DNA of 27,472 nt from Streptosporangiaceae bacterium. Lineage in GTDB: Bacteria; Actinomycetota; Actinomycetes; Streptosporangiales; Streptosporangiaceae. Numbering within the stretch: the first letter of the stretch is position 1; each line of letters begins with the position of its first letter. The translations under genes and the position numbers were made by a program. The stretch covers positions 1 to 27,472 of the forward strand of contig JAICWX010000089.1 in NCBI GenBank assembly GCA_025934635.1, in the 5' to 3' direction. Shown here in pieces: positions 4,178 through 25,772 of the stretch. Below the pieces are notes generated by a model. That model saw nothing but the letters and a program-made list of their open reading frames with translations. It was not told the DNA's origin and did no database searches.

Positions 4178-4191
4178 AGGGCGAAAGTCAC
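4178..4191 (-). promoter_or_regulatory. Candidate DosR/DevR-like box upstream of the P1B-5 ATPase
   Basis: Read on the minus strand this is GTGACTTTCGCCCT, matching 11 of 14 positions of the box form GGGACTTTNGTCCC. It lies 28 bases before the ATPase start. Weak alone; its value comes from the series of similar sites in the window. Confidence 0.4.
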
Positions 4192-4218
4192 CAGGCCCGG
4201 GGCCGTTCGGTCATCCGG

Positions 4219-4521
4219 TCAATGGGACGGGTGCGTGGCGTCCTGGACCGTCCAGATTGCCGACGTCAGCGTCTCGAACCGGTGCAGGTGCCGGCGCAGC
4301 TGAGCGGAATCGCCCGCCCCGGCAGCGGTGACGGCCTCGGCGGCGGCCGCCGCGAGCCGGCTCAGCCGCACGTCCAGGAAGATGCCGGTGCCCGGGCTGC
4401 CCCCAGCCGCGGCCCGGACCTCGCGGCTCGCGGCTTCCGCCTCGGCCAGGATCGCCGCGGTCGCCGCGGCCCTGGTCAGCCACGGAACCGGCGCCTCGGG
4501 AAGGGACCATGGTGCCGGCAT
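4219..4521 (-). CDS. 100-aa Ala-rich protein of unknown function, likely DosR-box controlled
   Basis: I do not recognise the family. The frame starts at ATG 4521-4519 (MPAPWSLPEAPVPWLTRAAA), encodes 100 residues and ends in TVQDATHPSH. It is Ala/Glu/Arg-rich and predicted mostly helical, with two long amphipathic stretches (about 17-38 and 50-90), no signal peptide and no membrane segment. The coding signal begins near this ATG; upstream the same frame continues open but loses protein-like character. The ribosome site is weak. A near-perfect DosR-type box begins 31 bases upstream, so it may be expressed from a short or no leader. It is followed after 68 bases by the ATPase operon on the same strand. 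Confidence 0.6.
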   Translation of the reverse strand: MPAPWSLPEAPVPWLTRAAATAAILAEAEAASREVRAAAGGSPGTGIFLDVRLSRLAAAAAEAVTAAGAGDSAQLRRHLHRFETLTSAIWTVQDATHPSH

Positions 4522-4551
4522 GGCCCGGATCCGGTGGGCAGACCATCGGCC

Positions 4552-4565
4552 GGGACTTTGGGCCC
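4552..4565. promoter_or_regulatory. Strong DosR/DevR-like box (13/14)
   Basis: GGGACTTTGGGCCC matches GGGACTTTNGTCCC at 13 of 14 positions. It lies in the 343-base region between the minus-strand 100-aa gene (31 bases from its start) and the plus-strand phosphoribosyltransferase fragment. Confidence 0.65.
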
Positions 4566-4737
4566 GCCGTACCGTATCGATCGGATGACGAGCGGGCCGG
4601 TGCTGGCAGAGGCGGAGGACACGTCGCGGCATGACCTTTGCCCTGGATACCCACCCGTTCGGTACCTTCTTCCGCGCCGGGCCGGAACCAAGGCCCTTTC
4701 CGCGGGCGGGGGAATGACGTGTGCTGGTCAGGCGCGA

Positions 4738-4751
4738 GGGCTTTATGTCCC
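4738..4751 (+). promoter_or_regulatory. Candidate DosR/DevR-like box upstream of phosphoribosyltransferase fragment
   Basis: GGGCTTTATGTCCC matches 11 of 14 positions of the box form and lies 113 bases before the ATG at 4865, pointing into the plus-strand unit. Confidence 0.45.
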
Positions 4752-7585: not shown

Positions 7586-7861
7586 GCTCCCGCCACCCCC
7601 GTAACGAGGCGATCCCGGCACACGGGCGGGTTCCGGCGAGGCTGGCAGTCGCGGCGCGTGGCGCTGTCCGTCATACCGGGAGCGTAATCCCTGCCTTCCG
7701 CTTCTTAGGTGAATTTCGGCCGTCGCTGGCTGCGCCTGTTATGCCATGTGACGTTCGGCCTGCCCGATACCGGTCTGACTGCTCTAGCGCGCGCGAGCAT
7801 CCCGGCGGAATCTGGAGCAGTCTGACAGAGAGCAGGACCCAGGACCGCTCCAGGAGGAACC

Positions 7862-8272: not shown

Positions 8273-8485
8273 CCAAGCAGATCCGGCGGCTGGTCCGGTA
8301 CCTGCGGATGAAGCGCGTGCGGCCTGGGTGGGTGCCACGGGCCAGGCACGCATGACCAACGTCCCAGGAGCCGAGGACCCGTGTCCCTAACGTTGCCGCC
8401 CGGGCCCGGCGCAATCTGGCTCCATGGTGTGCAGCGAAACGGATCCTGGCCGACCCGGCAATGCTGGCCACCTCGGGGACCTGCG

Positions 8486-8870
8486 GTGAGGATCGTCGCC
8501 GCGCTCGGCGGCAACGCGCTGCTCGAGCGCGGCGAGCCCCCGGAGTCCGGGCTCCAGGAAGCCCACGTCATCAAGGCCGTCTCGGCGCTGGCCCGCTGGC
8601 CGCGGGGAACGACCTGGTGATCACCCGGGGCAACGGCCCGCAGGTCGGCCGATGGCATCCGCGGCGTGGAAGCGGTGGTGGACAAGGACCCGACTGCCTC
8701 GCTGCTGGCCCGCGAGCTGCACGCGGACGCACTGCTGCTGCTCACCGACGTAGCGGCGGTCATGGACGGGTACGGAACACCGCGGGCCCGGCCGATCCGG
8801 CGGGCAGCTCGGTGACGCTCAGGCCCTGCTCGATCAGCGGGCCGGCACGGTCATCGTCCGGTCAGTGTGA
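8486..8870 (+). pseudogene. arcC: Decayed carbamate kinase gene
   Basis: Three pieces of carbamate kinase remain in order. The first begins at GTG 8486 (VRIVAALGGNALLERGE...AHVIKAVSALA). A frameshift follows near 8595, then AAGNDLVITRGNGPQVG, matching the 'HGNGPQVG' substrate loop. After a large deletion comes GVEAVVDKDPTASLLARELHADALLLLTDV.AV...GTP.ARPIR. A further deletion leads to the C-terminus (ALLDQRAGTVIVRSV) ending at TGA 8868-8870. The normal enzyme has about 310 residues; roughly 125 codons remain in at least two frames, so it is inactive. Its end overlaps the 3' end of the convergent stress-protein gene by nine bases. The intact enzyme makes ATP from carbamoyl phosphate in fermentative arginine breakdown. 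The 213 bases before it (8273-8485) hold nothing recognisable. Confidence 0.85.
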
Positions 8871-9704
8871 CGGGACGATGGCGACGGGGCCGTGCGCGTG
8901 GCTCAGCACCGCGTGCCGCACCGCGCCGGGACCCGGCAGGTCACCGTGCCCCGGGTGCCGCCCGATTACCACCAGGTCGGCGCGGGCGGACAGGCCCACC
9001 AGGACCCGGGCGGGAGGGCCGGACACGATCTCCTGGCAGACCGGGATGCCGGGATACTTCTCCTGCCAGGTCCGCAGCGCTTCCGCCAGGCCGGCGCACG
9101 CTCCGGCTGGCACCGGGCCGGACGCCGGCCAGGCATGCACCGCTAGCAGCCTGGCCTGGCGCAGGTCCGCCTCCTCGAACGCGACGGCGACCGCGTCGGC
9201 ACAGTTTTCCGGATCGCCGACGCCCACGACGACCCGCCCGGGCGAGACGGCGGGCTGGTCGCGGACGACTGCGACCGGGCAGGCCGCGTGGGCCGACACG
9301 TACCGGCTGACCGATCCCAGCGTCATCGCGGTGAACGCGCCGACCCCGCGGCAGCCGACGACCAGCATCGACGCCCCGGATCCGGTCCGGGCGATGGCCT
9401 GGGCGGGCGGGCCGCCCAGCGGGTCAGCCGTGATCGTCAGGCCCGGAGCCCGTGCGGCGGCCCGGGTGGCCGCCTCCTTCAGGGCCAGCTCGCGCTCGCT
9501 GCGGACGAGGTCGGCGATGTGGTCGCGGTCCGGCCGCAGCTGGAGCGGGACCGTCCAGGGCAGCGGCGGCATGGCGGACACGATCCGCAGCGGGACGCCC
9601 CGCAGCAGGGCCTCGCTGGCGCCCCATTCGACCGCGCGCAGGGATTCCTCGGAACCGTCCGTCGCGGCCACGATGGCCTTGGCTGTGCTGGCTGATGCGG
9701 TCAT
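8862..9704 (-). CDS. Universal stress protein, two UspA domains
   Basis: The 280-aa product contains two tandem UspA domains. Domain 1 (about 8-145) begins AIVAATDGSEESLRAVEWG and ends with the nucleotide-loop pattern VVGCRGVGAFTAMTLGSVSRYV...CPVAVV. Domain 2 (about 155-280) starts VVVGVGDPENC and ends VIGRHPGHG...RHAVLSHAHGPVAIVP. Domain 1 keeps the G-2x-G-9x-G-S pattern for ATP binding; domain 2 deviates. The frame extends to GTG 9713, but ATG 9704 has GAGGAG eight bases upstream and is preferred. A box-like 14-mer lies 85 bases upstream. It is paralogous to the next gene, with near-identical DNA around the C-terminal codons. Double-domain stress proteins of this type are core DosR-regulon members in mycobacteria. 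Confidence 0.92.
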   Translation of the reverse strand: MTASASTAKAIVAATDGSEESLRAVEWGASEALLRGVPLRIVSAMPPLPWTVPLQLRPDRDHIADLVRSERELALKEAATRAAARAPGLTITADPLGGPPAQAIARTGSGASMLVVGCRGVGAFTAMTLGSVSRYVSAHAACPVAVVRDQPAVSPGRVVVGVGDPENCADAVAVAFEEADLRQARLLAVHAWPASGPVPAGACAGLAEALRTWQEKYPGIPVCQEIVSGPPARVLVGLSARADLVVIGRHPGHGDLPGPGAVRHAVLSHAHGPVAIVPSH

Positions 9705-9788
9705 GGCTGGCACTCCTCACTCGATTCCACATCGTCATCGTGTTCTCACGCTGGCGTGCGGCGGCAGGGAGTTCGGTCCCTTTCTGGA

Positions 9789-9802
9789 CAGACCAAGGTC
9801 CC
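9789..9802 (-). promoter_or_regulatory. Candidate DosR/DevR-like box upstream of the stress-protein gene 8862-9704
   Basis: Minus-strand sequence GGGACCTTGGTCTG matches 11 of 14 positions. It lies 85 bases before the start at 9704 and overlaps the first bases of the hairpin that follows the upstream stress-protein gene. Confidence 0.45.
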
Positions 9803-9845: not shown

Positions 9846-10712
9846 TCAGGCGGAGGGCACGATGGCGACCGGGCCGTGCGCGTGGTTCAGCACCGCGTGC
9901 CGGACCGAGCCGACTCCCTGATGGCCGGAATGCCTGCCGACGACGACCAGGTCGGCCCGGGCCGACAAGCCGATCAGCGCCCGGCCCGGGTGACCATGCG
10001 CGACTTCCTGGACGACCGGGACGTCGGGGTACTTGGCCCGCCATTCGTCGAGCAGGGCGGTCAGGTGCCTGCTCGCGTCCGCCGCGGCGGCCTGCGCGGC
10101 CGGAGCGGTGAACATCTGGCCGGCCCGGGAGATCTCAGTCTGCGGCGTGTGCCAGGCATGCATCGCCAGCAGGCTGGCGTGGCGCAGGCTGGCCTCTTCG
10201 AACGCGAAGGTGAGCGAGTCGCCGCAGTGGTCCAGGTCACCGACGCCCACGCCGACGAGGCCGTGCGGCTCCGGGGCTTCGTCCCGGACAACCACGACCG
10301 GGCAGGGGGCGTGGCTGGCGGCGTAGCGGCTGGCCGAGCCGAGCAGCAGGGCGGTGAAGGCGCCGGTGCCGCGGGAGCCGACCACCAGCATCAGCGCGCC
10401 GGCGCCGCTCTGGACGAGGGCCTCGGCCGGCGGCCCGGTCAGCTGGTCGGTGTCGATGAGCACGCCGTGAGCCGCCTTGGCGGCCCGCTCGGCCGCCAGG
10501 GCCAGCGCGCTGTCGCGGTTTTTGAGGAGGGCCTCGGTCACCGTGTCGTACTCACCCGACCCCACACGCGGGCTCATCCGGGGCAGCAGTGCCGCGGCGG
10601 CCACGATCCGCAGCGGCGCACCGCGGCGCGCGGCTTCCCTGGCGGCCCAGTCGACCGCCCGCAGGGATTCCTCAGAACCATCCGTACCGGCCACGATGGG
10701 CTTGGCTGCCAT
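9846..10712 (-). CDS. Universal stress protein, two UspA domains
   Basis: The 288-aa product has two UspA domains. Domain 1 (about 5-145) starts PIVAGTDGSEESLRAVDWAA and has VVGSRGTGAFTALLLGSASRYA...CPVVVV, an intact ATP-binding pattern. Domain 2 (about 155-288) starts VGVGVGDLDHC and ends VVGRHSGHQGVGSVRHAVLNHAHG. The ATG at 10712 has AAGGAGG ten bases upstream. A perfect DosR-core box lies 102 bases before the start, the best regulatory site in the window. A strong hairpin follows the gene, separating it from its paralogue (8862-9704). Both likely arose by tandem duplication. The role is probably ATP-responsive control of dormancy or stress survival, inferred from mycobacterial homologues. 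Confidence 0.93.
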   Translation of the reverse strand: MAAKPIVAGTDGSEESLRAVDWAAREAARRGAPLRIVAAAALLPRMSPRVGSGEYDTVTEALLKNRDSALALAAERAAKAAHGVLIDTDQLTGPPAEALVQSGAGALMLVVGSRGTGAFTALLLGSASRYAASHAPCPVVVVRDEAPEPHGLVGVGVGDLDHCGDSLTFAFEEASLRHASLLAMHAWHTPQTEISRAGQMFTAPAAQAAAADASRHLTALLDEWRAKYPDVPVVQEVAHGHPGRALIGLSARADLVVVGRHSGHQGVGSVRHAVLNHAHGPVAIVPSA

Positions 10713-11076
10713 TGTGCTCGTCCTCCTTGGACCCGATGAACATGTAGTTCGCCCACCGTCATCATGACCGCGGGCATGGCCTGGCCGCTAGGGCCGTTCC
10801 GGCCGCCAGGTCCGGGACTAAAGTCCCGGGTCCGATGGGGCCGGAGAAGCTGAATGGCCGCAGAGCAGCAGGTCGGTCTGGTGCGGCGGGGGCGCGGCAG
10901 CTGTTCGCTGACGGGTGCTTGAATCGCGCGTTCATGACCTCAGCTTCGCCCGGACCTCGCGAGCCCGGCAGAGACGTACCTCACCTCCTCGGCTGCCGAA
11001 GGTCCCGTACCAAGGACCCTGGCCGCGTCCCGCCCGCGGCGGTTTGCTTCAGGCATGCCATCAGGAGGAGGACCAG
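10713..11076. other. 364-base intergenic region with DosR-core palindrome
   Basis: It contains the perfect box at 10814-10827. A looser pair (GGTCCC at 10999-11004 and AGGACCC at 11012-11018) lies in its right part. Plus-strand open frames exist here but their translations are Arg/Pro-rich and look non-coding. Confidence 0.55.
10814..10827 (-). promoter_or_regulatory. Perfect DosR/DevR box core
   Basis: GGGACTAAAGTCCC is fully palindromic apart from its centre; read on the minus strand it is GGGACTTTAGTCCC, an exact match to the mycobacterial core GGGACTWWAGTCCC. The flanks CC/GG extend the symmetry to 18 bases. It lies 102 bases upstream of the minus-strand stress-protein gene. Confidence 0.85.
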
Positions 11077-11339: not shown

Positions 11340-13079
11340 GTGGGACAGGGTGCGGAGAATCGCCCGGGCCTGCTGCCCCAGCTTCAGCTCGACGAGCTCC
11401 TGTCCGAGCTGCAGGGGCGGCTGCAGGCCGTGCTGGCGACCAGGGACCGGATGCGCGGCCTGCTCGAGGCGGTCGTGGCCATCGGCTCGGGCCTGGACCT
11501 GGAGTCCACGCTGAGGCGGATCGTGGAGACCGCGGTCGGGCTGGTGGACGCGACTTACGGCGCGCTCGGCGTGATCGGTGACGCGGCCGGGGGCAAGCGG
11601 CTGGCCGAGTTCATCCCGGTCGGCCTGACCCAGGACGAGATCGCCGGGATCCACCACTGGCCCGAGGGCCGTGGCCTGCTCGGCCTGCTGATCGACGATC
11701 CGCGCCCGCTGCGCCTGGCCGACATCGGCCAGCACCCGGCATCCTCCGGTTTCCCCGAGGGGCATCCGCCGATGCACGGATTTCTCGGCGTGCCGGTGCG
11801 GGTCCGCGACGAGGTGTTCGGCAATCTGTACCTGACCGGCAAGCGCGGCGGCGGCGAGTTCACCGAGGACGACGAGGCCGTGCTGGTCGCCATGGGCGCG
11901 GCGGCCGGGGTGGCGGTGGAGAACGCCCGGCTCTACGAAGCGGCGCGCCGCCAGCAGCGCTGGATCCAGGCCAGCGCCGAGGTCACCACCCGGCTGCTGT
12001 CCGGTTCGGCGCCCAGCGCGGTGCTCGCCGATATCACCAAGCAGGCCCGGGAACTGTCCGGCGCCGATCTCGCGGTGCTCGCCCTGCCCGCCGAAGACGG
12101 GCGGCTACTCGAGGTCAGCTACGCCGACGGCGAGGGGTCCGAAACCACCCAGGGCCTGATCCTGCCGGCCGCCCAGTCCCTTTCTGGCCAGGTCCTGGCC
12201 ACCGGAGAGCCGGTGATAGCGGAGGACTTCGCTCAGGACGAGCGCGCGGCGAAGTCCGCGCGCGGGGCGATGAGCCAGATCGGGCCCGCGATCGTGTTCC
12301 CGCTCGGCGCCCCGGGCAACGTCCGCGGCGTGCTCACCATCGGCCGCCGCCACGGCGCGGCGCCGTTCCCCCAGGCCCAGACGGACATGGTCGCCTCGTT
12401 CGCCGCCCAGGCCGGCGTCGCGCTCGAGCTGGCCGCCAGCCGGTCCGAGGCCGAGCGGCTCTCGCTGTATGAGGATCGCGACCGGATCGCGCGTGACCTG
12501 CACGATTTGGTCATCCAGCGGCTGTACGCCACCGGCATGTCGCTGGAAGGCACCATGCCGATGATTACCAAGCCGGAGGTGGCCAGCCGGATCACCCACG
12601 CGGTCGACGCGATGGACGAGACCATCAAGGACATCCGCGCCACCATCTTCGCGCTCCAGGCCCGGGACGCCCCGGCCGGGCCGGACTTGCGCGGCGACGT
12701 CGTCGCGCTGACCGAGGAGATGACGGACATGCTGAGCTTCGCTCCGTCACTGCGGCTCGGGGCCGGGCTCGGAGCCGGCATCAGTGCCGAGGTGGCCGAG
12801 CAGGCGCTCGCCGTGCTGCGCGAGGCGCTGTCCAACGCGGCCCGGCACGCGCAGGCCAGCCAGGTGGACGTGACCGTCGACGTGAGCCCCGGCGGGACGC
12901 TGACGGTACAGGTGACCGACAACGGGACCGGCGTCCCGGCCGATGGCAGGCGCAGCGGGCTGCGTAACCTGGCCAGCCGGGCCGAGAAGCTGGGCGGCGA
13001 GCTGCGGCTGGAGACGGCGTATCCGGGGGCGGCATCGCCCGGCACCAGGCTGGAGTGGCGGGTGCCGCGCGCCGATTGA
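11340..13079 (+). CDS. devS: DevS/DosS-like GAF-GAF sensor histidine kinase
   Basis: The 579-aa kinase has GAF-A (~50-195), GAF-B (~220-365), a HisKA_3 dimerisation helix with RDLHDLVIQRLYATG (phospho-acceptor H388) and a HATPase domain (N box ALSNAARHA with N499; DNGTG 527-531; SGLRNLASRAEKLGG). In GAF-A the block HPPMHGFLGVPVRVRDEVFGNLYLT aligns with the heme region of mycobacterial DosS, placing H142 at the position of the proximal heme ligand (H149 there). Heme-based redox/O2/NO sensing is therefore likely. The open frame runs back to 11055, but GTG 11340 has GGAAGGA seven bases upstream and gives the usual DosS length (~578). The partner is likely the regulator at 16108-16827, which is 3 kb away on the other strand. 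Confidence 0.93.
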   Translation: MGQGAENRPGLLPQLQLDELLSELQGRLQAVLATRDRMRGLLEAVVAIGSGLDLESTLRRIVETAVGLVDATYGALGVIGDAAGGKRLAEFIPVGLTQDEIAGIHHWPEGRGLLGLLIDDPRPLRLADIGQHPASSGFPEGHPPMHGFLGVPVRVRDEVFGNLYLTGKRGGGEFTEDDEAVLVAMGAAAGVAVENARLYEAARRQQRWIQASAEVTTRLLSGSAPSAVLADITKQARELSGADLAVLALPAEDGRLLEVSYADGEGSETTQGLILPAAQSLSGQVLATGEPVIAEDFAQDERAAKSARGAMSQIGPAIVFPLGAPGNVRGVLTIGRRHGAAPFPQAQTDMVASFAAQAGVALELAASRSEAERLSLYEDRDRIARDLHDLVIQRLYATGMSLEGTMPMITKPEVASRITHAVDAMDETIKDIRATIFALQARDAPAGPDLRGDVVALTEEMTDMLSFAPSLRLGAGLGAGISAEVAEQALAVLREALSNAARHAQASQVDVTVDVSPGGTLTVQVTDNGTGVPADGRRSGLRNLASRAEKLGGELRLETAYPGAASPGTRLEWRVPRAD

Positions 13080-13305: not shown

Positions 13306-14310
13306 TTAAGGACCGGCCGGGAACAGGACGTCCTCGGGATCGCGCCGCACGCTGACGGCCACCTGAGTGACCAATCCGATCCGCAGTACGAGGTGCGGGC
13401 AGGCGTCGTCGCTGAGCTGGGTCCTGATGAACTCGCGCAGCCAGGGCAGCTCCAGCGGCTGGCTGTGCAGCGCCACCGCAGCTCCGCAGGTGCTGGCGGT
13501 GAGCATGATCCGCTGTAGCGCCTGCCCGGCGTTTACCCAGTCCACCGGGCCGTCGCCGGCCGTGGTGAGCAGGCCGGCCACGCCCGCTGACCGGACCGAG
13601 GTCGCCGTGCTGAGCGGCGGCAGCCCCCAGCCGTGGCCGTGGGCGAAGTCCCGGCCGGGAAAGTCCGGCTCGGTATGCTCAGCCCGCGCCGGGTAGCAGG
13701 TGGCAGGCACTCCGTCGTTACGGGCGCTGCCCGGCGAGGGAGCCCACCGGGCGAGTTCCCTGACGCGCTCGCCGGAGAGCCGCAGGTGGCGTTCGGCGGT
13801 TTCCACGGCGGCCGCCAGGGCGGCCCGCCGCCCGTCGTCGGCCACGATGCGCAGCGCCGCCCCTTCGCGCGCCGCTCCCGCGCGCAGCGCGGCGAGCGTG
13901 TCCGTAGGCAGCGGCTCCGGGTCGAATGCGCCGCGATGGGTCCGCCGGGCGAGCACCTGGCGGGACAGCCGCCGCTCGAACTCGTCGGCGGGGGCTTGCT
14001 GCCGCCAGGACACCCGCGCCACCAGCATCGGCTGGCCCGGGTCAGGCAGCACGCGGGTCTGCGGGATGAAACCCAGGGACCTCAGGGCCAGGCGGACGTT
14101 GAACAGCGCGGCGCCGCAGCTGATCATCATCTCGCGGCCGTCCGGGTCGGCCACCGTCAGCCGCCGGCTGGTATCGGCGTACAGGCTGATCTGCTGCTCG
14201 CCGTCGGCGGTGAACCGCCACGGCTGGGTGTTATGCACCGAGGGTGCCCAGGTGGCGTAGGCAACCACGTACCTGGAGATCTCTTCGGCGGTAATCATCG
14301 GCTCGCTCAT
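13306..14310 (-). CDS. Acg-like FMN-binding nitroreductase-family protein
   Basis: The 334-aa protein shows the hallmark of Acg-type nitroreductase-fold proteins: WAPSVHNTQPWRF near residues 21-33, then REMMISCGAALFNVRLALRSLG (about 59-80). The length matches the double-domain Acg family (~330) rather than ordinary 200-aa nitroreductases. Several DosR-regulon genes of M. tuberculosis (acg/Rv2032, Rv3127, Rv3131) belong here. The known member binds FMN but its lid blocks the active site, so a flavin-storage or sequestration role has been proposed; the function here is unproven. ATG 14310 has TGAGGT upstream. A box and hairpin lie 36-71 bases upstream. It is a distant paralogue of the protein encoded at 24717-25721. 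Confidence 0.9.
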   Translation of the reverse strand: MSEPMITAEEISRYVVAYATWAPSVHNTQPWRFTADGEQQISLYADTSRRLTVADPDGREMMISCGAALFNVRLALRSLGFIPQTRVLPDPGQPMLVARVSWRQQAPADEFERRLSRQVLARRTHRGAFDPEPLPTDTLAALRAGAAREGAALRIVADDGRRAALAAAVETAERHLRLSGERVRELARWAPSPGSARNDGVPATCYPARAEHTEPDFPGRDFAHGHGWGLPPLSTATSVRSAGVAGLLTTAGDGPVDWVNAGQALQRIMLTASTCGAAVALHSQPLELPWLREFIRTQLSDDACPHLVLRIGLVTQVAVSVRRDPEDVLFPAGP

Positions 14311-16114: not shown

Positions 16115-16827
16115 CCGGGACCGTGGTGAGGTTCGCCGCTCCCGTGCTGGTCGCCGAAGGCGCGGACGGCGTAGGCGGCGGCCTGGGTACGGCGCTCCAT
16201 GCCGAGCTTGGCGAACAGCGCGGACACGTAGTTCTTCACGGTCTTCTCGGCCAGGAACAACCGCTCGCCGATCTGCCGGTTGGTCAGGCCCTCCCCGATC
16301 AGCTCGAGGATATTGCGTTCCTGGTTGCTCAGCCCGGCCAGCGGGTCGTGCCGAGTCGCCTGGTTGCGCAGCCGGGCCATCAGCTGGCTGGCCGCCCGCG
16401 GGTCCAGCATCGACTGGCCCGATGCCACCGTGCGCACCGCGCCCACCAGGTCGGTGCCGCGGATCTGCTTGAGCACGTATCCCGCCGCGCCCGCCATGAT
16501 CGCGTCGAACAGCGCCTCGTCGTCGCCGAACGAGGTCAGCATCAGGCAGGCGACCTCCGGCAGCCGGGACCGGATCTCCCGGCACACCGACACCCCGTCG
16601 CCGTCCGGCAGCCGCACGTCCAGGACGGCCACGTCCGGCTTCAGCGCCGGGATGCGGGCCAGGGCCGAGGACGCGGTCCCGGCCTCGCCGACCACGGTGA
16701 TGTCCGGCTCGGCTTCCAGCAGGTCGCGGACGCCACGGCGGACGATCTCATGGTCGTCCATGAGAAACACCGCGATCGGCGGCCTGGCCTCGTCGCCCGT
16801 CCCTGTGCCGCTCGCCGGACTTGTCAC
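16108..16827 (-). CDS. devR: DevR/DosR-like NarL-family response regulator
   Basis: The 239-aa regulator has a receiver domain (about 18-135): acidic pair D24-D25, phospho-acceptor D70 in [14 protein letters not shown]98 in MLTSF and K120 in [10 protein letters not shown] LuxR-type helix-turn-helix domain follows (about 163-225) with [25 protein letters not shown] and [21 protein letters not shown]. The recognition helix block [22 protein letters not shown] is the one characteristic of mycobacterial DosR, supporting recognition of the same DNA box. It carries a longer polar N- and C-terminus than DosR (217 aa). A symmetric box lies 80 bases upstream, suggesting autoregulation shared with the divergent stress-protein gene at 17020. 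The likely cognate kinase is at 11340-13079. Confidence 0.93.
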
Positions 16828-16906: not shown

Positions 16907-16920
16907 AGGACCAAGGTCCC
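16907..16920 (-). promoter_or_regulatory. DosR/DevR-like box between regulator and stress-protein genes
   Basis: Minus-strand GGGACCTTGGTCCT matches 12 of 14 positions; AAGGACCAAGGTCCCTT (16906-16922) is strongly symmetric. It is 80 bases from the regulator start (16827) and 100 bases from the divergent stress-protein start (17020), so one site may serve both. Confidence 0.65.
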
Positions 16921-17019: not shown

Positions 17020-17469
17020 ATGTCGGGCATCATCGTCGGAGTGGACGGTTCCGGCCACTCTCAGCGCGCCCTGGAGTGGGCTATGCGCGAAGCGGCGGCC
17101 CACCAGGTGCCGCTCACCGTGCTTACCGTGAACGAAGCCATCAGGAGTTACTACAGCGGCATGGCCATCTTCCCGGACGACCCGGTCCGGACCGAGGACG
17201 CCCGCAAGCTGGCTCAGGCCGAGACCGACGAGGTGCTGGCCGGCCTGGACGGGCCTCACCCGGCTTCGGTCACGGTCACCGCGGTGCACGGCTTCCCGGT
17301 CGAGGAGATCATCGGCGCGGCCAAGGACGCCGACATGATCGTGGTGGGCTCGCGCGGCGCGGGCGGCTTCACCCGGCTGATGATGGGCTCGGTCGCCGAC
17401 CAGGTCGCCAAGCACGCGCACTGCCCGGTCCTCATCGTTCCCCCGGAGAACCGGGAGCACCACAGCTAA
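17020..17469 (+). CDS. Universal stress protein, single UspA domain
   Basis: The 149-aa protein is one UspA domain: IIVGVDGSGHSQRALEWAMREAA at the N-terminus and VVGSRGAGGFTRLMMGSVADQV...CPVLIVP near the C-terminus, keeping the G-2x-G-9x-G-S pattern for ATP binding. ATG 17020 follows AAGGAGAAGGAAA, a strong ribosome site; the frame is open to 16921 but that part lies across the regulatory region. It is divergent from the DevR-like gene with a shared box between them, comparable in content to the devR/Rv3134c neighbourhood of mycobacteria (orientation differs). A strong terminator follows. Confidence 0.93.
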   Translation: MSGIIVGVDGSGHSQRALEWAMREAAAHQVPLTVLTVNEAIRSYYSGMAIFPDDPVRTEDARKLAQAETDEVLAGLDGPHPASVTVTAVHGFPVEEIIGAAKDADMIVVGSRGAGGFTRLMMGSVADQVAKHAHCPVLIVPPENREHHS

Positions 17470-17556: not shown

Positions 17557-17580
17557 TCAGGGCCTTGGGAGCAGAACCAG

Positions 17581-18786
17581 TCAGGGCATCAGGCCGTGCA
17601 GGGGGAAGACGGCATTCCTGGTGGCCAGGATGGCCTGGTCGACGGGATCGGCCGGGTCGTAGCCGCCGTCGAAGGAAGCGAACCGGGGCAGGGCGCCTTC
17701 GGTCATCGTCTGGGGGGCGGCCTGACTGGTCACCAGCGACACGTACTCCCGCCACAGGCCCGGAGTCACCGAAGCCGGGTCGAGCGGGTGACCCGCCGCC
17801 TCGAACAGCAGGTGAGTCCAGCTCCTCGGCACTACGTGCACATGCTCGTAGCCGCCGCCCCCGGTCAGCAGCCAGCGCCCGCCCGCGTACTCGTGGGCCA
17901 GCTGGTGGATCGCGGCGTGGGCGGCCCGCTGGCCGTCGATGCTCAGCTCCAGGTTGGTCAGCGGGTCGTCCCGGTGCGAGTCGCACCCGTGCTGGCTGAC
18001 CAGGAGCTGCGGGCGGAACTGCCGCAGCAGCGGCGGTACCACGGCGTGGAAGGCGCGCAGCCAGCCGGCGTCCCCGGTCAGGGCGGGCAGCGCGACGTTG
18101 ACCGCCGAGCCCTCCGCGGCGGCACCCCCGGTATCGGTCGCGTACCCGGTGCCGGGGAACAAGCTGTCCGGGTGCTCGTGCAGCCCGATGGTCAGGACCC
18201 GCGGGTCGTTCCAGAAGGCCCGCTCCACGCCGTCCCCGTGGTGGGCGTCCACGTCCACGTAGGCGATCCGCTCGGCACCCTGGCTGAGCAGCCAGGCGAT
18301 CGCGACGGCCGGGTCGTTGTAGACGCAGAAGCCGCTGGCGCTCCCGGCCATGGCGTGGTGCAGGCCGCCCGCGATGCTCGCCCCGTGCTGCGCCGCCGAC
18401 GTCCACACGGCCCGGGCCGCGGCCAGCGTGGCCCCGGTCACCATGGCGGCCGCCTCGTGCATGCCGGGGAACACCGGGTCGTCGTCGGTGCCGAGCCCGT
18501 GCATGAGCAGCACCCGTTCGGTCATGCGCTCCTTGCCCAGGCCCAGCAGCCGGCCACTGCCGGCCAGCCGGACGATGTCGATATAGCCGCGGTGGTGGTA
18601 GAGCTCGAGCTCGGCCCGGGTCGCCGCGGCCGGGACCTCGACCGACACCCCGTCCAGCTGGAACAAGCCGAAGGCCCGGGCCAGCTCCATGGTCAGCTTG
18701 AGCCGGATGGGAGCCATCGGGTGGCCGGGCCCGAAATCGTACGCAGCCAGCCGCTCGTCCCAGGCCACGTGCAGAGTGCAGGTCAT
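17581..18786 (-). CDS. acuC: AcuC-type class I histone-deacetylase-fold lysine deacetylase
   Basis: The 401-aa protein has the arginase/deacetylase fold of AcuC. H143-H144 form the charge-relay pair (GLHHAMAGSASGFCVYND). The zinc ligands are D180 and H182 in YVDVDAHHGDGVE and D269 in SQHGCDSHRDDPL. Y313 in TGGGGY is the catalytic tyrosine. All active-site residues are present, so it should be active. AcuC enzymes remove acetyl groups from lysines and classically reactivate acetyl-CoA synthetase. Its ATG overlaps the cydC stop (ATGA), so it is the last gene of the cytochrome bd run, an unusual setting. An acyl-CoA synthetase, whose catalytic lysine is the usual acetylation site in that superfamily, lies at the other end of the run. 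Confidence 0.92.
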   Translation of the reverse strand: MTCTLHVAWDERLAAYDFGPGHPMAPIRLKLTMELARAFGLFQLDGVSVEVPAAATRAELELYHHRGYIDIVRLAGSGRLLGLGKERMTERVLLMHGLGTDDDPVFPGMHEAAAMVTGATLAAARAVWTSAAQHGASIAGGLHHAMAGSASGFCVYNDPAVAIAWLLSQGAERIAYVDVDAHHGDGVERAFWNDPRVLTIGLHEHPDSLFPGTGYATDTGGAAAEGSAVNVALPALTGDAGWLRAFHAVVPPLLRQFRPQLLVSQHGCDSHRDDPLTNLELSIDGQRAAHAAIHQLAHEYAGGRWLLTGGGGYEHVHVVPRSWTHLLFEAAGHPLDPASVTPGLWREYVSLVTSQAAPQTMTEGALPRFASFDGGYDPADPVDQAILATRNAVFPLHGLMP

Positions 18787-20570
18787 CTCGGCCCTCCTCG
18801 TGCCGTCCAGAGGCGCTGGTAAACGCCGCCGGCCCGGATGAGCTGGTCGTGGATACCCCGCTCGGCCACCCGGCCGTGATCGAGCACGACGATCTCGTCC
18901 ACCTGGTCCAGGCCGTCCAGGTCGTGGGTGATCAGCAGCGTGCTCCGGCCGGCGGTGGCGGCCAGCAGGTCGGCGGTCAGCGCGCGGCGGTTCTCCGGGT
19001 CCAGGTGCGCGGTGGGCTCGTCCAGGACGAGCACGGCCGGGTCGGCCAGCAGCGCCCGGGCCAGGGCGAGCCGCTGGCGCTGGCCGCCGGACAGCGCGGT
19101 GCCGTGGGTCCCGGCCGGGGTATCCCAGCCCAGGGGCAGCGAGGTGATCCAGTCCAGCAGCCGGGCCCGGTCCGCGGCCGCGGCCAGCTCGGCGTCGCTG
19201 GCGGCCGGCTTGGCCAGCCGGAGGTTGTCCCGGATGGTCGCGTCGAAGATGTGCGGGTCGGCGGCGCAGCCGGTGACCACCGCGCGGACGTCGTCGGGGT
19301 CATAGCCGGCCAGGTCGCGGCCGTTCAGAGTGGCCGTGCCGCGGGACAGGTCGGCGAACCGGAACAGGACCGCGGCCACGGTCGACTTGCCGGCGCCGGT
19401 CGCGCCGACCAGGGCGACCCGTCGCCCGGGCCGAAGGTCAAGATCTATATCCCGAACGGCGTCGGTGTCACGCCCCGGGTACCGCACCGCGGCCCCGCGC
19501 AGCGAGATCGTCACCGGCCGCTCCGGTGGCGGGAACGGGTGACCGGGGCGGCGGACCGGATCCGGCGTGTCGGCCATCGCCGCGATCCGGTCCGCCGCGC
19601 TCCTGGCCTGGCCGAGCTGGAGCGCGGCGGCGGGCAGCGCCGCGACCGCCTCGAACGCGGCCAGCGCGGTGAGGGTGATGACGGCCAGCGGCACCCGGCC
19701 CAGCGCGCCGTGCCCGGTGGCCGCGACACTGGTTGTTGTAACACCGAGCACCAGCACGCCCCACAGGGTCAGGCCGGAGACCACGGCGGTGAGGCCGACG
19801 CCGAGACCGGACGCCGCGGCCGAGCGGCGGGCCAGCCGGGTCAGCTCGGCGTCCGCGGTCCGGGCCCGGTCCAGGCCGGACTCGACCGCACCGAACGCGT
19901 GCAGCTCGGCCGCGCCGTTCAGCAGGTCGGTGACGGCGGCCCCCAGTTCGCCGCGGGCGGGCGCGGTCCGGCGGGACGCGCGGCGGGCCGTCGTGGCGGC
20001 GGCCAGCGGCACCAGCACCCCGGCGGCCAGCAGGCCCGCCGCGAGCACCCCGGCCGCGGGAGCCAGGATCAGCAGCACGGCGGTGCTGGCGCCCGCTCCG
20101 ACCAGGGCGGCGGCCAGCGGCGGCACGATGCCGCGGATGAACAGGTCCTGGGTTGCGTCCACGTCGCTGACCAGCCGGGCCAGCATGTCACCGGACCGGA
20201 ACGCGGCCAGGCCAGCCGGGGCCAGCCGCTCGAGCTGGCGGTAGCTGGCCACCCGGACGTCGGCCAGGACCCGGAAGGCCACGTCGTGAGAGAACAGCCG
20301 CTCGGCGTAGCGCAGCACGCCCCGGCCGACGGACAGCGCGCGGACCAGGACCACGACCACCGAGATGGCCACGATGTTCGGGTGCTGGGAGGCGCGGGCC
20401 AGCAGGAAGCCCGAGGTGGCCAGCAGCGCGACCCCGGCCCCGCAGGCGCCCGCCCCGGCCAGCACGGCCAGCGCCAGCTCGCGGCGCATCGAGCGGGATA
20501 CGAAGGCGAGCTGGAGCAGGCGGAGCAGCGAGTGCCCGGCTCCCGGCCGGACGGGGGTGATCGCGGTCAT
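18783..20570 (-). CDS. cydC: CydC, heterodimeric ABC exporter subunit for cytochrome bd assembly
   Basis: The 595-aa half transporter has six N-terminal membrane helices (about 25-320) and a C-terminal ATPase domain: Walker A GATGAGKS, signature LSGGQRQRLALARALL, Walker B VLVLDEPTAHLD and switch histidine in THDLDGLD. With CydD it forms the thiol/heme-linked ABC exporter needed to assemble cytochrome bd in the membrane. Its ATG overlaps the cydD stop by four bases (ATGA) and its own stop overlaps the acuC start in the same way. Assignment as CydC rather than CydD rests on gene order and on its similarity to the second subunit. Confidence 0.93.
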   Translation of the reverse strand: MTAITPVRPGAGHSLLRLLQLAFVSRSMRRELALAVLAGAGACGAGVALLATSGFLLARASQHPNIVAISVVVVLVRALSVGRGVLRYAERLFSHDVAFRVLADVRVASYRQLERLAPAGLAAFRSGDMLARLVSDVDATQDLFIRGIVPPLAAALVGAGASTAVLLILAPAAGVLAAGLLAAGVLVPLAAATTARRASRRTAPARGELGAAVTDLLNGAAELHAFGAVESGLDRARTADAELTRLARRSAAASGLGVGLTAVVSGLTLWGVLVLGVTTTSVAATGHGALGRVPLAVITLTALAAFEAVAALPAAALQLGQARSAADRIAAMADTPDPVRRPGHPFPPPERPVTISLRGAAVRYPGRDTDAVRDIDLDLRPGRRVALVGATGAGKSTVAAVLFRFADLSRGTATLNGRDLAGYDPDDVRAVVTGCAADPHIFDATIRDNLRLAKPAASDAELAAAADRARLLDWITSLPLGWDTPAGTHGTALSGGQRQRLALARALLADPAVLVLDEPTAHLDPENRRALTADLLAATAGRSTLLITHDLDGLDQVDEIVVLDHGRVAERGIHDQLIRAGGVYQRLWTARGGPR

Positions 20571-22251
20571 GACGCCACCGCCAGCAGCGCCGCCGGATGG
20601 CTCAGGCGGCCGTCGTCGAGGGTGAAAACCCGGCCCGTGACCGGTCGCTGGTCGTGGGCGACCCGGATCACGGTGCGGCCGGCCGTCAGGGTGGCCAGCG
20701 CGGCGTCGAGCCGGGCCGCGGTCTGCGCGTCCAGGTGGGCGGCGGGCTCGTCCAGCAGCAGCAGCGGCGCGTCGCGCAGGAACGCGCGGGCCAGCGCGAG
20801 CTGCTGACGCTGGCCGGAGGACAGCCGCAGGCCGCCCTCCCCCACCGCCGTGTCGTAGCCGTGCGGCAGGTTCTCGATGAACTCATCCGCCCCGGCCGCC
20901 CGGGCGGCGGCTTCGACGGCCGCGCGGCTGGCGGCCGGGTCGCCGAGCGCGATGTTCTCGGCCACCGACGCGGCGAACAAGTGCGGATCCTGCGGGACCC
21001 AGGCGAGCTGGCGGCGCCACTCCCCCACCGGGACGCGGGCCAGGTCCAGGTCGCCGACCTCGATCCGGCCGCTGGTGGGCTCGGCGAAGCGGAGCAGGAG
21101 CGCGAGCAGCGAGCTCTTGCCCGCCCCGCTCGGCCCGGTCAGGGTGATCCGGTCACCGGGCCGGATCGTCATGCTCACCCCGGACAGGACACCGGAGCCG
21201 CGGCCCGGGTAGGACAGTCCCACCCCGCTCAGCCTGATCGTGTCCGTCCGCAGGTCCGCCGGCCGCGACGCGGGCCGGGCGAGCCCGGCCTCCCGGCCGG
21301 GGACCGGGGTGTCGAGGATGGCGAAGACGTCGGCGGCCGCGGCGGCGCCTTCGGTGCTGGCGTGGAACTGGGCGCCGACCGCGCGCAGCGGCAGGTACGC
21401 CTCGGGGGTGAGCAGCAGGACCAGCAAGGCAGTCTGATAGCTCATGTGGCCGGCCAGCAGGCGCAGCCCGACCTCCACCGCGACCAGGGCAGTGGCCAGC
21501 GCGGCCGCCAGCTCCAGCACGAACGCGGACAGGAAGGCCACCCGCAGCGTGGCCATGGTGGCCTGGCGGTAGTCCCCGGTGACCTGGCCGATCACCTCGG
21601 CCTGGGGCTTGGCCCGGCCGAACAGCTTGAGCGTGGGCAGCCCCTCCACCACATCGAGGAAATGGCCGCCGAGTTTCGCCATCAGCCGCCACTGGCGCTG
21701 GGTGACGGCCTTGGTGTGCAGGCCGACCAGGATGGCGAACAGCGGGATCAGCGGCAGCGTCACGCCGATGACCACCCCGGAGATCCAGTCCGCCAGCCCG
21801 ACCCGGATCAGCACGGCGAACGGCACCACGCTGGCCAGCACCAGCTGGGGCAGGTAGCGGGCGAAGTACGGGTCGAGCGCGTCCAGGCCCCGGGTGGCCA
21901 GCGTGGTGACCTCGCCGGACCGGTGCCCGGTCAGCCAGGACGGTCCCAGCCTCAGCACGTGGTCGGTCAGGCGGCGGCGCAATTGGGACTTGACCGCGGC
22001 CGCCGCGCGCAGCGCGGTGACCTCGCCGCCGTAGGTGGCCGCGGCCCGGGCCAGCAGGACGATCGCCAGCGCACCGAGCGAGCCGGCCAGGACGGTAACC
22101 CCGGTCCCGGTGGCGGCGCCGGCCAGGAGGTGCGCCAGCAGGCTGGCCTGGAACAGGATCAGGGCGGTGGCGACCAGGCCGAGGGCGACGGTGACCGCGA
22201 GGTAGCCGCGCGCGGCGGCCGAGTAGCGCAGCAGCCGCGGGTCGAGTGGCT

Positions 22252-22255
<4 letters not shown>
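20567..22255 (-). CDS. cydD: CydD, heterodimeric ABC exporter subunit for cytochrome bd assembly
   Basis: The 562-aa half transporter has six membrane helices (about 15-300) and an ATPase domain: Walker A GPSGAGKSS, signature LSSGQRQQLALARAFL (SSGQ instead of SGGQ), Walker B LLLLDEPAAHLD and AHDQRPVTG at the switch. The same frame is open far upstream through cydB, but the true start is GTG 22255-22253, which overlaps the cydB stop (GTGA) and begins VKPLDPRLLRYSAAARGYL. It is preceded by cydB and followed by overlapping cydC, so the exporter is made in step with the oxidase it matures. Confidence 0.93.
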
Positions 22256-23292
<1,037 letters not shown>

Positions 23293-23308
23293 GACGGGAT
23301 TCTCCTGA

Positions 23309-24697
23309 TCAGTACTGGAAGACGGGCAGCGGTTCGGGGGCGCCGGGCTGGCCGGCCTCGGCCGGGGCGCCCGCCTTGACGTGCCGGACCGTCAGCCACC
23401 AGGCGATGCCCGCCAGGGCGGCGTAGAGCAGCGTGAAGGTGGTCAGCGAGATGATCACCGAGGAGACGGTGACGCCCGGCGAGACGCTCTGCGCGGTGGT
23501 CAGCAGGCCGAACACCGTCCACGGCTGGCGGCCCATCTCGGTGAAGATCCAGCCGAACGCGATGCCCAGGTAGGGCAGCGGCAGGCCCCACAGCGCGACC
23601 CGGTAGAACCAGCGGCTGCGCGGCAGGGCGCGCCGCCGGGTCAGCCACAGGCCGAGCGCGGCCAGCAGCGCGGCCAGCGAGCCGAAGCCGATCATCAGGC
23701 GGAACGACCAGTAGGTGACACCGATGACGGGCTTGTACTGGCCGGGCCCGTACTTCCTGGCGTAGGCCTTCTCGACGTCGTTGATGCCCTGGACGGTGCC
23801 GTGCGGGTTCATCGTGGAGATCAGCGAGAGCAGGTACGGCACCCGGACGCTCCACAGCTCCTTGTCGCCGTTCAGCGAGCCGATGGTGAACAGGGAGAAG
23901 GACGCGTCGGTTTGGGTGGTGTACAGCGCCTCGGCCGCGGCCATCTTCATCGGCTGCTGCGACTCCATCATCCGGGCCTGCACGTCGCCGGTGACCGCGG
24001 TGGCGATGCCGGCCAGCAGCGTCACGACCAGGCCGAGCCGCATGGCCCGCCGGAACACGTCCAGGTTGTTGCGCAGGGCTACGTGCCAGGCGCTGGCGGC
24101 CACGATCACCGCGCCGGCCACCATGAACGCCGCGAAGAACACGTGCGGCCAGGTCGCCAGCACGGTCGGGTTGGTGAGCAGGGCGACGATGCTGGTGAGC
24201 ACCACCCGGTGGGTGGCCGGGTCGACCCGGTAGCCGACCGGGTGCTGCATCCAGGAGTTGGCGGCCAGGATGAAGAAGGCGGACAGGCTGGTGCCGACGG
24301 AGACCAGCCAGATCGCGGTCAGGTGCAGCCGGGGCGACAGCTTGTTCCAGCCGAAGATCCAGACGCCGATGAACGTGGACTCCAGGAAGAACGTCAGCAG
24401 CGCCTCCATCGCCAGCGGCGCGCCGAACACGTTCCCGACGAACCTGGAGTAGGCCGACCAGTTCATGCCGAACTGGAATTCCTGCACGATCCCGGTAACC
24501 ACCCCGACCGCGAAGTTGATCAGGAAGATCTTCCCGAAGAACTTCGTCATCCGCAGGTACACGTCGTCCTTCTTGACCCGCCACAGCGTCTGCATGATCG
24601 CGACCAGGTAGGACAGGCTGAGGGTGAGCGGGACGAAGATGAAGTGGTACACGGTGGTGATCCCGAATTGCCATCGGGACAGTTCGAGAACGGTCAT
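23309..24697 (-). CDS. cydA: Cytochrome bd oxidase subunit I
   Basis: The 462-aa protein carries the CydA heme ligands: H18 (b595 position) in ITTVYHFIFVPLTLS, H185 and M335 (b558) in TWPHVFF and FRLMIGFG, plus E98/E106 in the proton path and EMGRQPW at 387-393. The Q loop between helices 6 and 7 is of the short kind. It oxidises menaquinol/ubiquinol and reduces O2 to water without proton pumping, working at very low O2. ATG 24697 has AGGGAAAG upstream and follows the nitroreductase stop by 19 bases, with no promoter-like gap, so it is probably co-transcribed from the box at 25759. Confidence 0.96.
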   Translation of the reverse strand: MTVLELSRWQFGITTVYHFIFVPLTLSLSYLVAIMQTLWRVKKDDVYLRMTKFFGKIFLINFAVGVVTGIVQEFQFGMNWSAYSRFVGNVFGAPLAMEALLTFFLESTFIGVWIFGWNKLSPRLHLTAIWLVSVGTSLSAFFILAANSWMQHPVGYRVDPATHRVVLTSIVALLTNPTVLATWPHVFFAAFMVAGAVIVAASAWHVALRNNLDVFRRAMRLGLVVTLLAGIATAVTGDVQARMMESQQPMKMAAAEALYTTQTDASFSLFTIGSLNGDKELWSVRVPYLLSLISTMNPHGTVQGINDVEKAYARKYGPGQYKPVIGVTYWSFRLMIGFGSLAALLAALGLWLTRRRALPRSRWFYRVALWGLPLPYLGIAFGWIFTEMGRQPWTVFGLLTTAQSVSPGVTVSSVIISLTTFTLLYAALAGIAWWLTVRHVKAGAPAEAGQPGAPEPLPVFQY

Positions 24698-24716
24698 CGG
24701 CTTTCCCTGATCGTCG

Positions 24717-25721
24717 TTAGTCGGTCGTCAGTTCGCTCGCCGGGCGGCGGGCGGTGGGATGGCTGGACCGGACCACGCCGAGTTCCAGCAGCAGCTGCGG
24801 CGACCCGGCCGGCGTCAGGCCGCCGCGGAGCTGCGCCCGGACCGACGCCGATTGCAGCGGCTGGGTCTGCAGCCGGGCGAATACCCACTGGCTGGCGGCG
24901 CGCAGCAGGACCCGCTGCAGGGCCTGGCCGGCCCGCAGCCAGCTGGGCTCGTCCTCGCCGGGTGCCACCATGACCGCGGTGACCGGGGCGGGCGGACCGC
25001 CGGGCGGCACCAGTCCCCAGCCCCGGCCCAGGTCGAAGTCGCGTTGCGGCAGGCGCCCGGGCTCCCGGCCGGCCGTGGCCGGGAAGGCATGGGCGGGCAC
25101 GCCGTCCCTGGCCGCATCGCCCGCGTCGCGGGTCCAGCGCAGCGTCTCGGCGCGGGTCCGGATCGCGGCGGGCGATGTGGGGTAAAGGTCCTGGTACCGG
25201 CTCCACGAGGCGAGGATCGCGGTCAGCCGCTGGTAGGCGGGCCCGTCGTCGATGACCGTCAGGGTCGCGCCCTCGGCCTCGGCGTCGTCCCGCAGCCGCT
25301 CGAGCAGGTCCGCGGGCAGCGAGCCGGCTTCGAACGCAGCACGGTGCGTGTGCCGGTGCGGGACCGCGCGGAGCATCGCCCGTTCGGCTGATGTCATGGG
25401 CTCCTGCTGGCCTGCCCGCACCCGGGCCAGCAGGTGCCGCCGGCTGGCGTCGGGGAACAGGTCGACCTCGGGCTGGTAGCCCAGCGAGCGGATCGCGAGC
25501 CGCAGCCCGAACAGCGCCGCGCCGCAGCTGATGATCATTTCCCGTCCGGTCGGGTCCTCCGTCAGCTGGCGGCTGGCGTCGGCGTAGAGCTCGATCGCCT
25601 GCCCGGTGACGGTGAACCGCCACGGCTGGGTGTTGTGCACCGACGGCGCGCGGGACGCTATCTCGATCAGGTACCCAGCCCGTTCGGCTAGGTCCTGATT
25701 TGTTCTGTCGTCTGTGGTCAC
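24717..25721 (-). CDS. Acg-like FMN-binding nitroreductase-family protein, first gene of the cyd run
   Basis: The 334-aa protein has the family hallmark RAPSVHNTQPWRF (about 24-36), ADASRQLTEDPTGREMIISCGAALFGLRLAIRSLGY (about 47-82) and the C-terminal block AGQALQRVLLRAASQWVFARLQTQPLQ. It matches the 13306-14310 protein in length and layout but differs clearly in sequence, so the duplication is old. The start is GTG 25721 with GAGGGTAGG upstream. A 12/14 box lies 38 bases upstream, and cydA begins 19 bases after its stop. A flavin protein heading a bd-oxidase operon suggests a redox-balancing or flavin-holding role at low O2 (inference). Confidence 0.9.
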   Translation of the reverse strand: MTTDDRTNQDLAERAGYLIEIASRAPSVHNTQPWRFTVTGQAIELYADASRQLTEDPTGREMIISCGAALFGLRLAIRSLGYQPEVDLFPDASRRHLLARVRAGQQEPMTSAERAMLRAVPHRHTHRAAFEAGSLPADLLERLRDDAEAEGATLTVIDDGPAYQRLTAILASWSRYQDLYPTSPAAIRTRAETLRWTRDAGDAARDGVPAHAFPATAGREPGRLPQRDFDLGRGWGLVPPGGPPAPVTAVMVAPGEDEPSWLRAGQALQRVLLRAASQWVFARLQTQPLQSASVRAQLRGGLTPAGSPQLLLELGVVRSSHPTARRPASELTTD

Positions 25722-25758
25722 GTCGCCTACCCTCGGCCGGGGTCCCCGGTCGGCGGCA

Positions 25759-25772
25759 GGGCCGAAGGTCCC
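25759..25772 (-). promoter_or_regulatory. DosR/DevR-like box in front of the nitroreductase-cydABDC-acuC run
   Basis: Minus-strand GGGACCTTCGGCCC matches 12 of 14 positions. It lies 38 bases from the nitroreductase start and 106 bases from the divergent acyl-CoA synthetase start, so it may act on both. Confidence 0.6.

Follow-up and report, generated by a model that had tools for sequence, protein, structure and literature searches.

A predicted DosR/DevR regulon cluster with a widespread operator form in a Streptosporangiaceae-like actinobacterium

We analysed a stretch of 27,472 nucleotides from a Streptosporangiaceae bacterium (assembly GCA_025934635.1, contig JAICWX010000089.1, forward strand; hereafter the window), which carries genes for a response regulator of the DosR/DevR type and for a DevS-type histidine kinase together with a series of 14-base-pair (bp) sites resembling DosR operators. 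An initial annotation, made from the letters alone, had read nine of these sites as a local DosR/DevR-type regulon with a lineage-specific operator variant. The genes concerned are listed below (Usp, universal stress protein; PNPOx, pyridoxamine 5'-phosphate oxidase; ORF, open reading frame; aa, amino acids).

1811..4150, minus strand: P-type ATPase with a C-terminal hemerythrin domain (Pfam), with a DosR-type site upstream
4219..4521, minus strand: 100-aa protein with no Pfam match, predicted regulon member
8862..9713, minus strand: Usp (Pfam Usp, two stretches)
9846..10712, minus strand: Usp (Pfam Usp, two stretches)
11340..13079, plus strand: DevS-type GAF-GAF histidine kinase (Pfam GAF_2, GAF, HisKA_3, HATPase_c)
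13306..14310, minus strand: nitroreductase-like protein (Pfam Nitroreductase)
14388..15620, minus strand: acetyl-CoA hydrolase/transferase (Pfam)
15617..15994, minus strand: PNPOx-like protein (coordinates from the gene call; Pfam Pyridox_ox_2, scanned as the longer ORF 15617-16585)
16108..16827, minus strand: DosR/DevR response regulator (phmmer best PDB match 3c3w, Mycobacterium tuberculosis DevR; the gene finder prefers the start 16761)
17020..17469, plus strand: Usp (Pfam Usp, scanned as ORF 16921-17469; start from the gene call and the alignment to the relative L001)
17581..25721, minus strand: putative operon nitroreductase-cydABDC-deacetylase on a single strand (Pfam), composed of the next six genes
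24717-25721, minus strand: nitroreductase-like (Pfam)
23309-24697, minus strand: cydA (Pfam)
22252-23292, minus strand: cydB (Pfam)
20567-22255 and 18783-20570, minus strand: ABC transporters, named cydD and cydC by their place
17581-18786, minus strand: histone-deacetylase-like (Pfam)

The regulator consists of a NarL-type receiver and a GerE domain, and its match to 3c3w, the best among solved structures, has an E value of 3.7e-84. The phosphoacceptor Asp54 (PMC3029386) is present in a VLDVRLPDG segment aligned to 3c3w. K179, K182 and N183, core DNA-binding residues of DosR/DevR (PMC5999986), are conserved in the window regulator and invariant in 182 of 182 aligned regulators, and Y184 is as in DevR. 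The best matches of the first GAF domain of the kinase are DevS GAF structures and 2vzw, listed as a probable histidine kinase response regulator, which we take to be DosT. Both candidate histidines of the HPAS..HPPM segment of this domain are conserved in the sequence alignment, the heme ligand of DevS GAF-A being presumably His149. The kinase starts at about 11316-11340, DNA similarity to L001 begins near 11316, and the start of the longer ORF at 11055 is probably not the true one. By these criteria, both the window DosR and its kinase appear to be true orthologues.

Candidate operators were scored with a weight matrix trained on the noncoding DNA of 13 DosR loci (L002-L014). These belong to a set of 80 loci (L001-L080), the best 80 of more than 563 relatives found in a search with the window DosR, in which L001-L014 together with the window are termed the window clade and L015-L080 are mostly Streptomyces loci; the window and its close relative L001 were excluded from training. 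This matrix replaced an earlier one whose low threshold was too permissive. The sites, with their scores, ranks and distances, are as follows.

4178..4191, minus strand: predicted DosR operator GTGACTTTCGCCCT before the P-type ATPase/hemerythrin gene; rank 10, score 13.6, 37 bp from the predicted start
4552..4565, plus strand: predicted DosR operator GGGACTTTGGGCCC before 4219-4521; rank 4, score 17.5, 31 bp from the start
4631..4644, plus strand: further candidate ATGACCTTTGCCCT; score 12.3
4738..4751, minus strand: site GGGACATAAAGCCC of the initial annotation, unsupported; rank 45, score 6.1
7748..7761, plus strand: further candidate GTGACGTTCGGCCT before a phosphofructokinase gene; score 12.4, 205 bp from the predicted start 7543
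8352..8387, minus strand: candidate pair 8352/8374, 22 bp apart, before a carbamate-kinase-like remnant; scores 13.8 and 4.6
9767..9802, minus strand: predicted operator pair 9767/9789, 22 bp apart, before Usp 8862-9713; scores 10.3 and 14.8
10814..10827, minus strand: predicted DosR operator GGGACTTTAGTCCC before Usp 9846-10712; rank 2, score 19.6, 102 bp from the start
10993..11006, minus strand: further candidate before the kinase region; score 10.9
14346..14381, minus strand: predicted operator pair 14346/14368, 22 bp apart, before the nitroreductase-like gene 13306-14310; scores 15.4 and 12.9
16095..16108, minus strand: predicted DosR operator GGGACCTTCTTCCC before the PNPOx and acyl-CoA hydrolase/transferase genes; rank 5, score 16.9, 101 bp from the predicted start 15994
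16907..16920, minus strand: predicted DosR operator GGGACCTTGGTCCT between dosR and Usp; rank 1, score 19.6
25759..25772, minus strand: predicted DosR operator GGGACCTTCGGCCC between the nitroreductase-cydABDC-deacetylase row and an AMP-binding gene; rank 3, score 18.6

All nine 14-mers of the initial annotation are present where it had placed them and lie outside predicted genes, with 16095 overlapping the end of dosR by one base. Eight of them fall among the ten best of 27,459 window positions, ranks 1 to 7 being held, in this order, by 16907, 10814, 25759, 4552, 16095, 14346 and 9789. Above a score of 13 there are 10 noncoding positions and no coding one, while 300 dinucleotide shuffles of the window yield 0.11 noncoding positions on average and never more than 2; above 10 the counts are 15 noncoding and 4 coding (4503, 5495, 19428 and 25179), with a shuffle mean of 0.59. 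Seven noncoding candidates above 10 are additional to the original nine (887, 4631, 7748, 8352, 9767, 10993 and 14368). In an unseeded count, GGGACCTT is the top noncoding-enriched 8-mer of L001-L014 (19 noncoding, 4 coding). A matrix built from printed Streptomyces coelicolor sites gave mixed ranks, with 25759 first and five noncoding positions in its top ten (25759, 10791, 7748, 4552 and 16095); it was set aside as a poor fit to the window clade because 16907 ranked only 25th.

The original description of the sites stands in part. Site 10814 is a perfect core, identical to the published one at 14/14 positions, and 4552, given as 13/14, agrees with the M. tuberculosis core at 12/14 (consensus TTSGGGACTWWAGTCCCSAA; PMC2275270). 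The term near-palindromic suits 10814 (12/14) and 16907 (10/14), and it does not suit five sites with 8/14, 14346 with 6/14 or 4178 with 4/14. Likewise, C at position 6 (C6), ascribed to all sites except 10814 and 4552, is present in five of the nine (9789, 14346, 16095, 16907 and 25759); 4178, 4552 and 10814 have T (T6) and 4738 has A.

Comparison with L001, a metagenome-assembled genome labelled Nocardiopsis sp. with 84-89% DNA identity to the window over most of 11275-26602, shows a syntenic arrangement except for the acetyl-CoA hydrolase/transferase gene 14388-15620, which has no match there. Within the operators 16095, 16907 and 25759, 41 of 42 bases are identical in the two genomes, versus 256 of 374 (68%) other intergenic bases: 16095 is unchanged, 16907 lies inside an unchanged block and 25759 carries one change. 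At 14346/14368 the letters drift, and the two-site layout of 22 bp is kept at L001 positions 11267/11289. The neighbours of the window in a DosR tree are L001 and loci whose labels read Streptosporangiaceae, Trebonia and similar names.

The paired arrangement recurs in a class-wide survey, in which 189 of 246 genomes of the class gave a DosR-like match and 100 loci, one per genome, were taken from the top of the matches to the window DosR, so that the sample is biased to window-like regulators; four of the 100 share DNA with L015-L080. At DosR residue 184, 86 of these loci have Tyr, 10 His and 4 Asn. The three window pairs at 22 bp are 8352/8374, 9767/9789 and 14346/14368. Across the window clade, which is partly the training set, distinct pairs number 13 at 22 bp, 5 at 23 and 3 at 21, with a mean of 0.32 at the other distances from 8 to 60 bp; in the 86 Tyr184 loci, which lie outside the training set, the counts are 29, 12 and 3, and the mean at other distances is 0.92. 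Since 22-23 bp amounts to two helical turns, this spacing fits the cooperative binding of tandem sites described for M. tuberculosis DevR (PMC3029386, PMC4973870), the excerpts of the literature on DevR tandem sites containing no statement of the 22-bp figure itself. In L015-L080, site pairs peak a second time at a distance of 14 bp (38 directional counts versus 1.7 expected).

The sites concentrate in noncoding DNA beyond the window as well. In the 86 Tyr184 loci, 180 noncoding and 47 coding positions score above 12, with 12.1% of the bases being noncoding. In the genomes of eight relatives (G001-G008), GGGACYTTNGNCC has 102 matches, 79 of them noncoding, which bears out the intergenic bias that the initial annotation had proposed to look for (noncoding/total: 9/14 in G001, 29/30 in G002, 10/11 in G003, 6/10 in G004, 4/5 in G005, 4/5 in G006, 15/21 in G007 and 2/6 in G008). 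Against a reversed-pattern control, counted over coding and noncoding DNA pooled, the excess is clear in G002 (30 vs 8) and G007 (21 vs 7) and smaller in G003 (11 vs 6).

As for the genes that follow the sites, 206 of 210 noncoding sites scoring above 13 in L001-L014 and the 86 Tyr184 loci have a facing gene within 350 bp, at a median of 90 bp; for random noncoding positions the figure is 1578 of 2000. A Pfam scan of the first 110 of 339 distinct downstream proteins (from L001-L014 and L217-L228) gave 74 families. The 25 most frequent include 18 response regulators, 12 nitroreductases, 9 kinases, 9 PNPOx, 8 Usp, 6 CBS and 2 cydA, the count of regulators being partly built in because every locus had been fetched for its DosR gene. 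The predicted membership of the 4219-4521 protein in the regulon gains support from one homologue, in L002, where a site at 6014 (score 16.6) lies 169 bp upstream of the predicted start.

These findings lead us to assign a probability of roughly 0.9 to the reading that the window holds a genuine low-oxygen DosR/DevR (OsdR) regulon cluster of a Streptosporangiaceae-like soil actinobacterium, with an operator, GGGAC(C/T)TTnGnCCC, that is widespread. The core of the initial annotation is thereby upheld, the window having its own DosR orthologue, a DevS-type GAF kinase and predicted operators upstream of genes; as judged from sequence, the window regulon is a genuine DosR regulon of the ordinary kind, in a lineage that has been little studied. 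In the mechanism that we propose, the kinase 11340-13079 would sense O2, NO or CO with a heme bound by its first GAF domain and would phosphorylate DosR, whose dimers would bind the 14-mers, often two of them 22-23 bp apart on the same DNA face, and would activate, under hypoxia, genes starting some tens to about 185 bp away. The putative targets comprise dosR itself, three Usps, two nitroreductase-like proteins, the PNPOx/acyl-CoA pair, the hemerythrin P-type ATPase, the 4219-4521 protein, the cytochrome bd operon (cydABDC) and probably the phosphofructokinase.

Several observations weigh against this reading. Training of the matrix began from a DosR-like seed, and the loose pattern, with up to two mismatches allowed, is not enriched in the window (58 matches vs 48.8 expected; 11 of 100 shuffles reach 58). 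Site 4738 fails the matrix test and is rejected as a good DosR operator, and site 887, noncoding with a score of 14.7, has no promoter position because it stands at the facing ends of two genes. For 10814 no counterpart was seen in L001, whose contig ends near there. Genome-wide, the raw excess of GGGACYTTNGNCC is clear in two of the eight relatives; it is without clear excess over the reversed control in G001 (14 vs 16), G004 (10 vs 18), G005 (5 vs 6), G006 (5 vs 4) and G008 (6 vs 8), and G001 is the closest relative, though 9 of its 14 matches are noncoding.

The initial annotation had also taken C6, as in GGGACCTT, for a lineage-specific operator, which would reflect a changed specificity of DosR. 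Among the first 80 loci, as such a variant would predict, preference is for GGGACCTT in the window clade and for AGGGCCGA, the top noncoding-enriched 8-mer of L015-L080 (105 noncoding, 45 coding), in the mostly Streptomyces set. However, GGGACCTT occurs in 45 of the 86 Tyr184 loci class-wide, and the C6 14-mer GGGACCTTCGGCCC is printed for SCO5979, SCO0167 and SCO0216 in Table 1 of the S. coelicolor OsdR study (PMC5069765); therefore, C6 is not lineage-specific. Moreover, position 6 is Y in RRGNCYWNNGNMM, a weak consensus published for M. smegmatis (PMC6448022), and the core DNA-binding residues are the same in all aligned regulators. The choice of C6 or T6 tends to follow GC content (53 vs 16 at a GC content of at least 0.71 and 30 vs 18 below it, raw and small counts). 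A variant confined to this lineage is, in consequence, very unlikely.

The class-wide counts point toward the idea that the differing operator is that of the OsdR clade. In the Tyr184 group, GGGACYTTNGNCC has 75 noncoding versus 4 coding matches and occurs in 47 of 86 loci, and GGGCCGNNCGGCCC in 2 of 86; in the His/Asn184 group, GGGCCGNNCGGCCC has 25 noncoding versus 3 coding matches and occurs in 12 of 14 loci, and GGGACYTTNGNCC in 3 of 14. With the four shared loci dropped, the fractions become 47/83 for GGGACYTTNGNCC and 45/83 for GGGACCTT in the Tyr184 group and 11/13 for GGGCCGNNCGGCCC in the other. Among the first 80 loci, AGGGCCGA is found in 41 of 42 with His184. Judged by these figures, GGGAC(C/T)TT is a widespread predicted operator and the OsdR clade, with GGGCCG..CGGCCC, is the differing one. 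A misfit to this simple rule are the 23 Tyr184 loci of L015-L080, in which GGGAC enrichment is weak and GGGACCTT occurs in 6 of 23. The top 8-mers enriched in the noncoding DNA of these loci are others, such as ATCGCATC and ACGTTACC.

The four Asn184 regulators keep the GGGCCG dialect, and the sampled regulators of this dialect have H or N at position 184 together with R187, V194 and R153. Because all 57 non-Tyr184 tips of the tree form a single clade (support 0.80), the change of dialect is not assignable to a single residue, and an effect of residue 184 as its sole cause is inseparable from ancestry.

Alternatively, the sites could serve another NarL/LuxR-family regulator with a similar GGG..CCC palindrome, DosR being merely a neighbour. 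NarL-family operators resemble one another, and the sites were assigned by matrix, both of which would suit this explanation. The sites nevertheless precede regulator, kinase and Usp genes in DosR-bearing loci, an argument that is not independent of the neighbourhood because the loci were chosen for holding DosR. The dominant operator form, besides, differs between the two DosR sequence clades, and OsdR bound in vitro a region with the same 14-mer, the SCO5978-5979 region, in electrophoretic mobility shift assays (PMC5069765), which makes another regulator highly improbable. That the sites arose by chance in GC-rich intergenic DNA is barely credible. The loose pattern count does lie within chance and some sites are barely palindromic, but the shuffles, the conservation between species, the bias toward noncoding DNA and the pairing at 22 bp all speak against it.

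Among the putative targets of DosR, the cytochrome bd operon is the most surprising. The row behind 25759 (nitroreductase, cydA, cydB, two ABC transporters and deacetylase) is encoded on a single strand, the first two gaps measuring 19 and 16 bp and the later genes overlapping, and appears to be under the same DosR switch. Seven of the relatives' genomes have cydA; in G003 and G006 this gene has a site upstream, as has the nitroreductase-cyd row in G001. A cydA match was obtained in 145 of 246 genomes of the class, and the 420 bp upstream of the best 70 matches were scanned. DosR-type sites scoring above 11 precede cydA in 16 of the 16 best matches (column-permuted matrices: mean 0.62, maximum 4), in 18 of the best 30 (permuted mean 1.19, maximum 10), L346 being without one, and in 10 of the 40 at ranks 31-70 (permuted mean 1.56, maximum 9). 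Weak sites (11.1-11.7) account for four of the first 16, and two of these four, in L329 and L330, are one and the same 14-mer in similar genomes; one site in ranks 31-70 is weak and 371 bp away. In the cultured Actinospica acidithermotolerans (L328; its genome also holds the DosR locus L015), the site lies 111 bp upstream of the cydA match.

In Streptomyces, cydABDC is reported to be under Rex (PMC2799521, PMC7739888), and for mycobacterial cyd the reported regulators are Crp and PrrAB. The window row resembles the Rex-cydABDC system in its predicted low-oxygen regulation of cytochrome bd, and differs from it in having a DosR-type site instead of a Rex-like one, no Rex-like site being present in the window within three mismatches of two Rex patterns. 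It also differs from the situation in mycobacteria: in M. smegmatis, cydA reportedly keeps its induction when devR is mutated (data not shown in that paper), and cydAB is reported to be outside the DevR regulon (PMC7739888). Among the open-access papers listed by our searches, none showed a printed link between DosR and cyd in other actinobacteria. On balance, we lean toward a broader proposal, namely that DosR would directly control the cytochrome bd operon in many non-mycobacterial actinobacteria, a single kinase switching both dormancy genes and a high-affinity oxidase, and that its operators would have two dialects, GGGAC(C/T)TT and GGGCCG, which changed once among the sampled regulators, in the clade that lost Tyr184, next to the core residue Asn183.

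With regard to known systems, the cluster resembles DosR/DevR-DevS/DosT of M. tuberculosis in its homologous regulator and GAF kinase, the GGGAC core, Tyr184 and the tandem sites. The M. tuberculosis DosR regulon includes members of the Usp, nitroreductase, phosphofructokinase and CBS types, and the window regulon has predicted members of the same types. In contrast to the M. tuberculosis system, the window sites have C more often than T at position 6, and the kinase gene is encoded on the other strand, converging with dosR at a distance of three annotated genes. OsdR/OsdK of S. coelicolor is likewise homologous and has GGGACCTTCGGCCC in common with the window, whereas the consensus printed for it is AGGGCCGATCGGCCCT (PMC5069765).

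The window also contains several apparent gene remnants. At 8486-8860, behind the pair 8352/8374, carbamate-kinase-like pieces lie in different frames, with 8666-8815 matching Pfam AA_kinase; this is perhaps a decayed former member of the regulon. A 126-aa frame at 5913-6293 fuses a PntA-like N-terminus with a PntB-like C-terminus and is apparently the remnant of a transhydrogenase operon, and 4865-5077 encodes a 70-aa phosphoribosyltransferase fragment. Between Usp and the kinase, 10915-11259 has no Pfam match and may, by eye, be the remnant of a small OB-fold-like protein.

Our findings assign to the DosR system a soil lineage that is represented here chiefly by metagenome assemblies, and suggest that one matrix, together with one for the OsdR clade, could be used to search for regulons across actinobacteria. 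The difference between the dialects, in turn, offers a small set of candidate residues (184, 187, 194 and 153) for the specificity of the regulator. The link to cytochrome bd, if real, would represent a direct oxygen-sensing route to the bd oxidase, unlike those through Rex or Crp/PrrAB.

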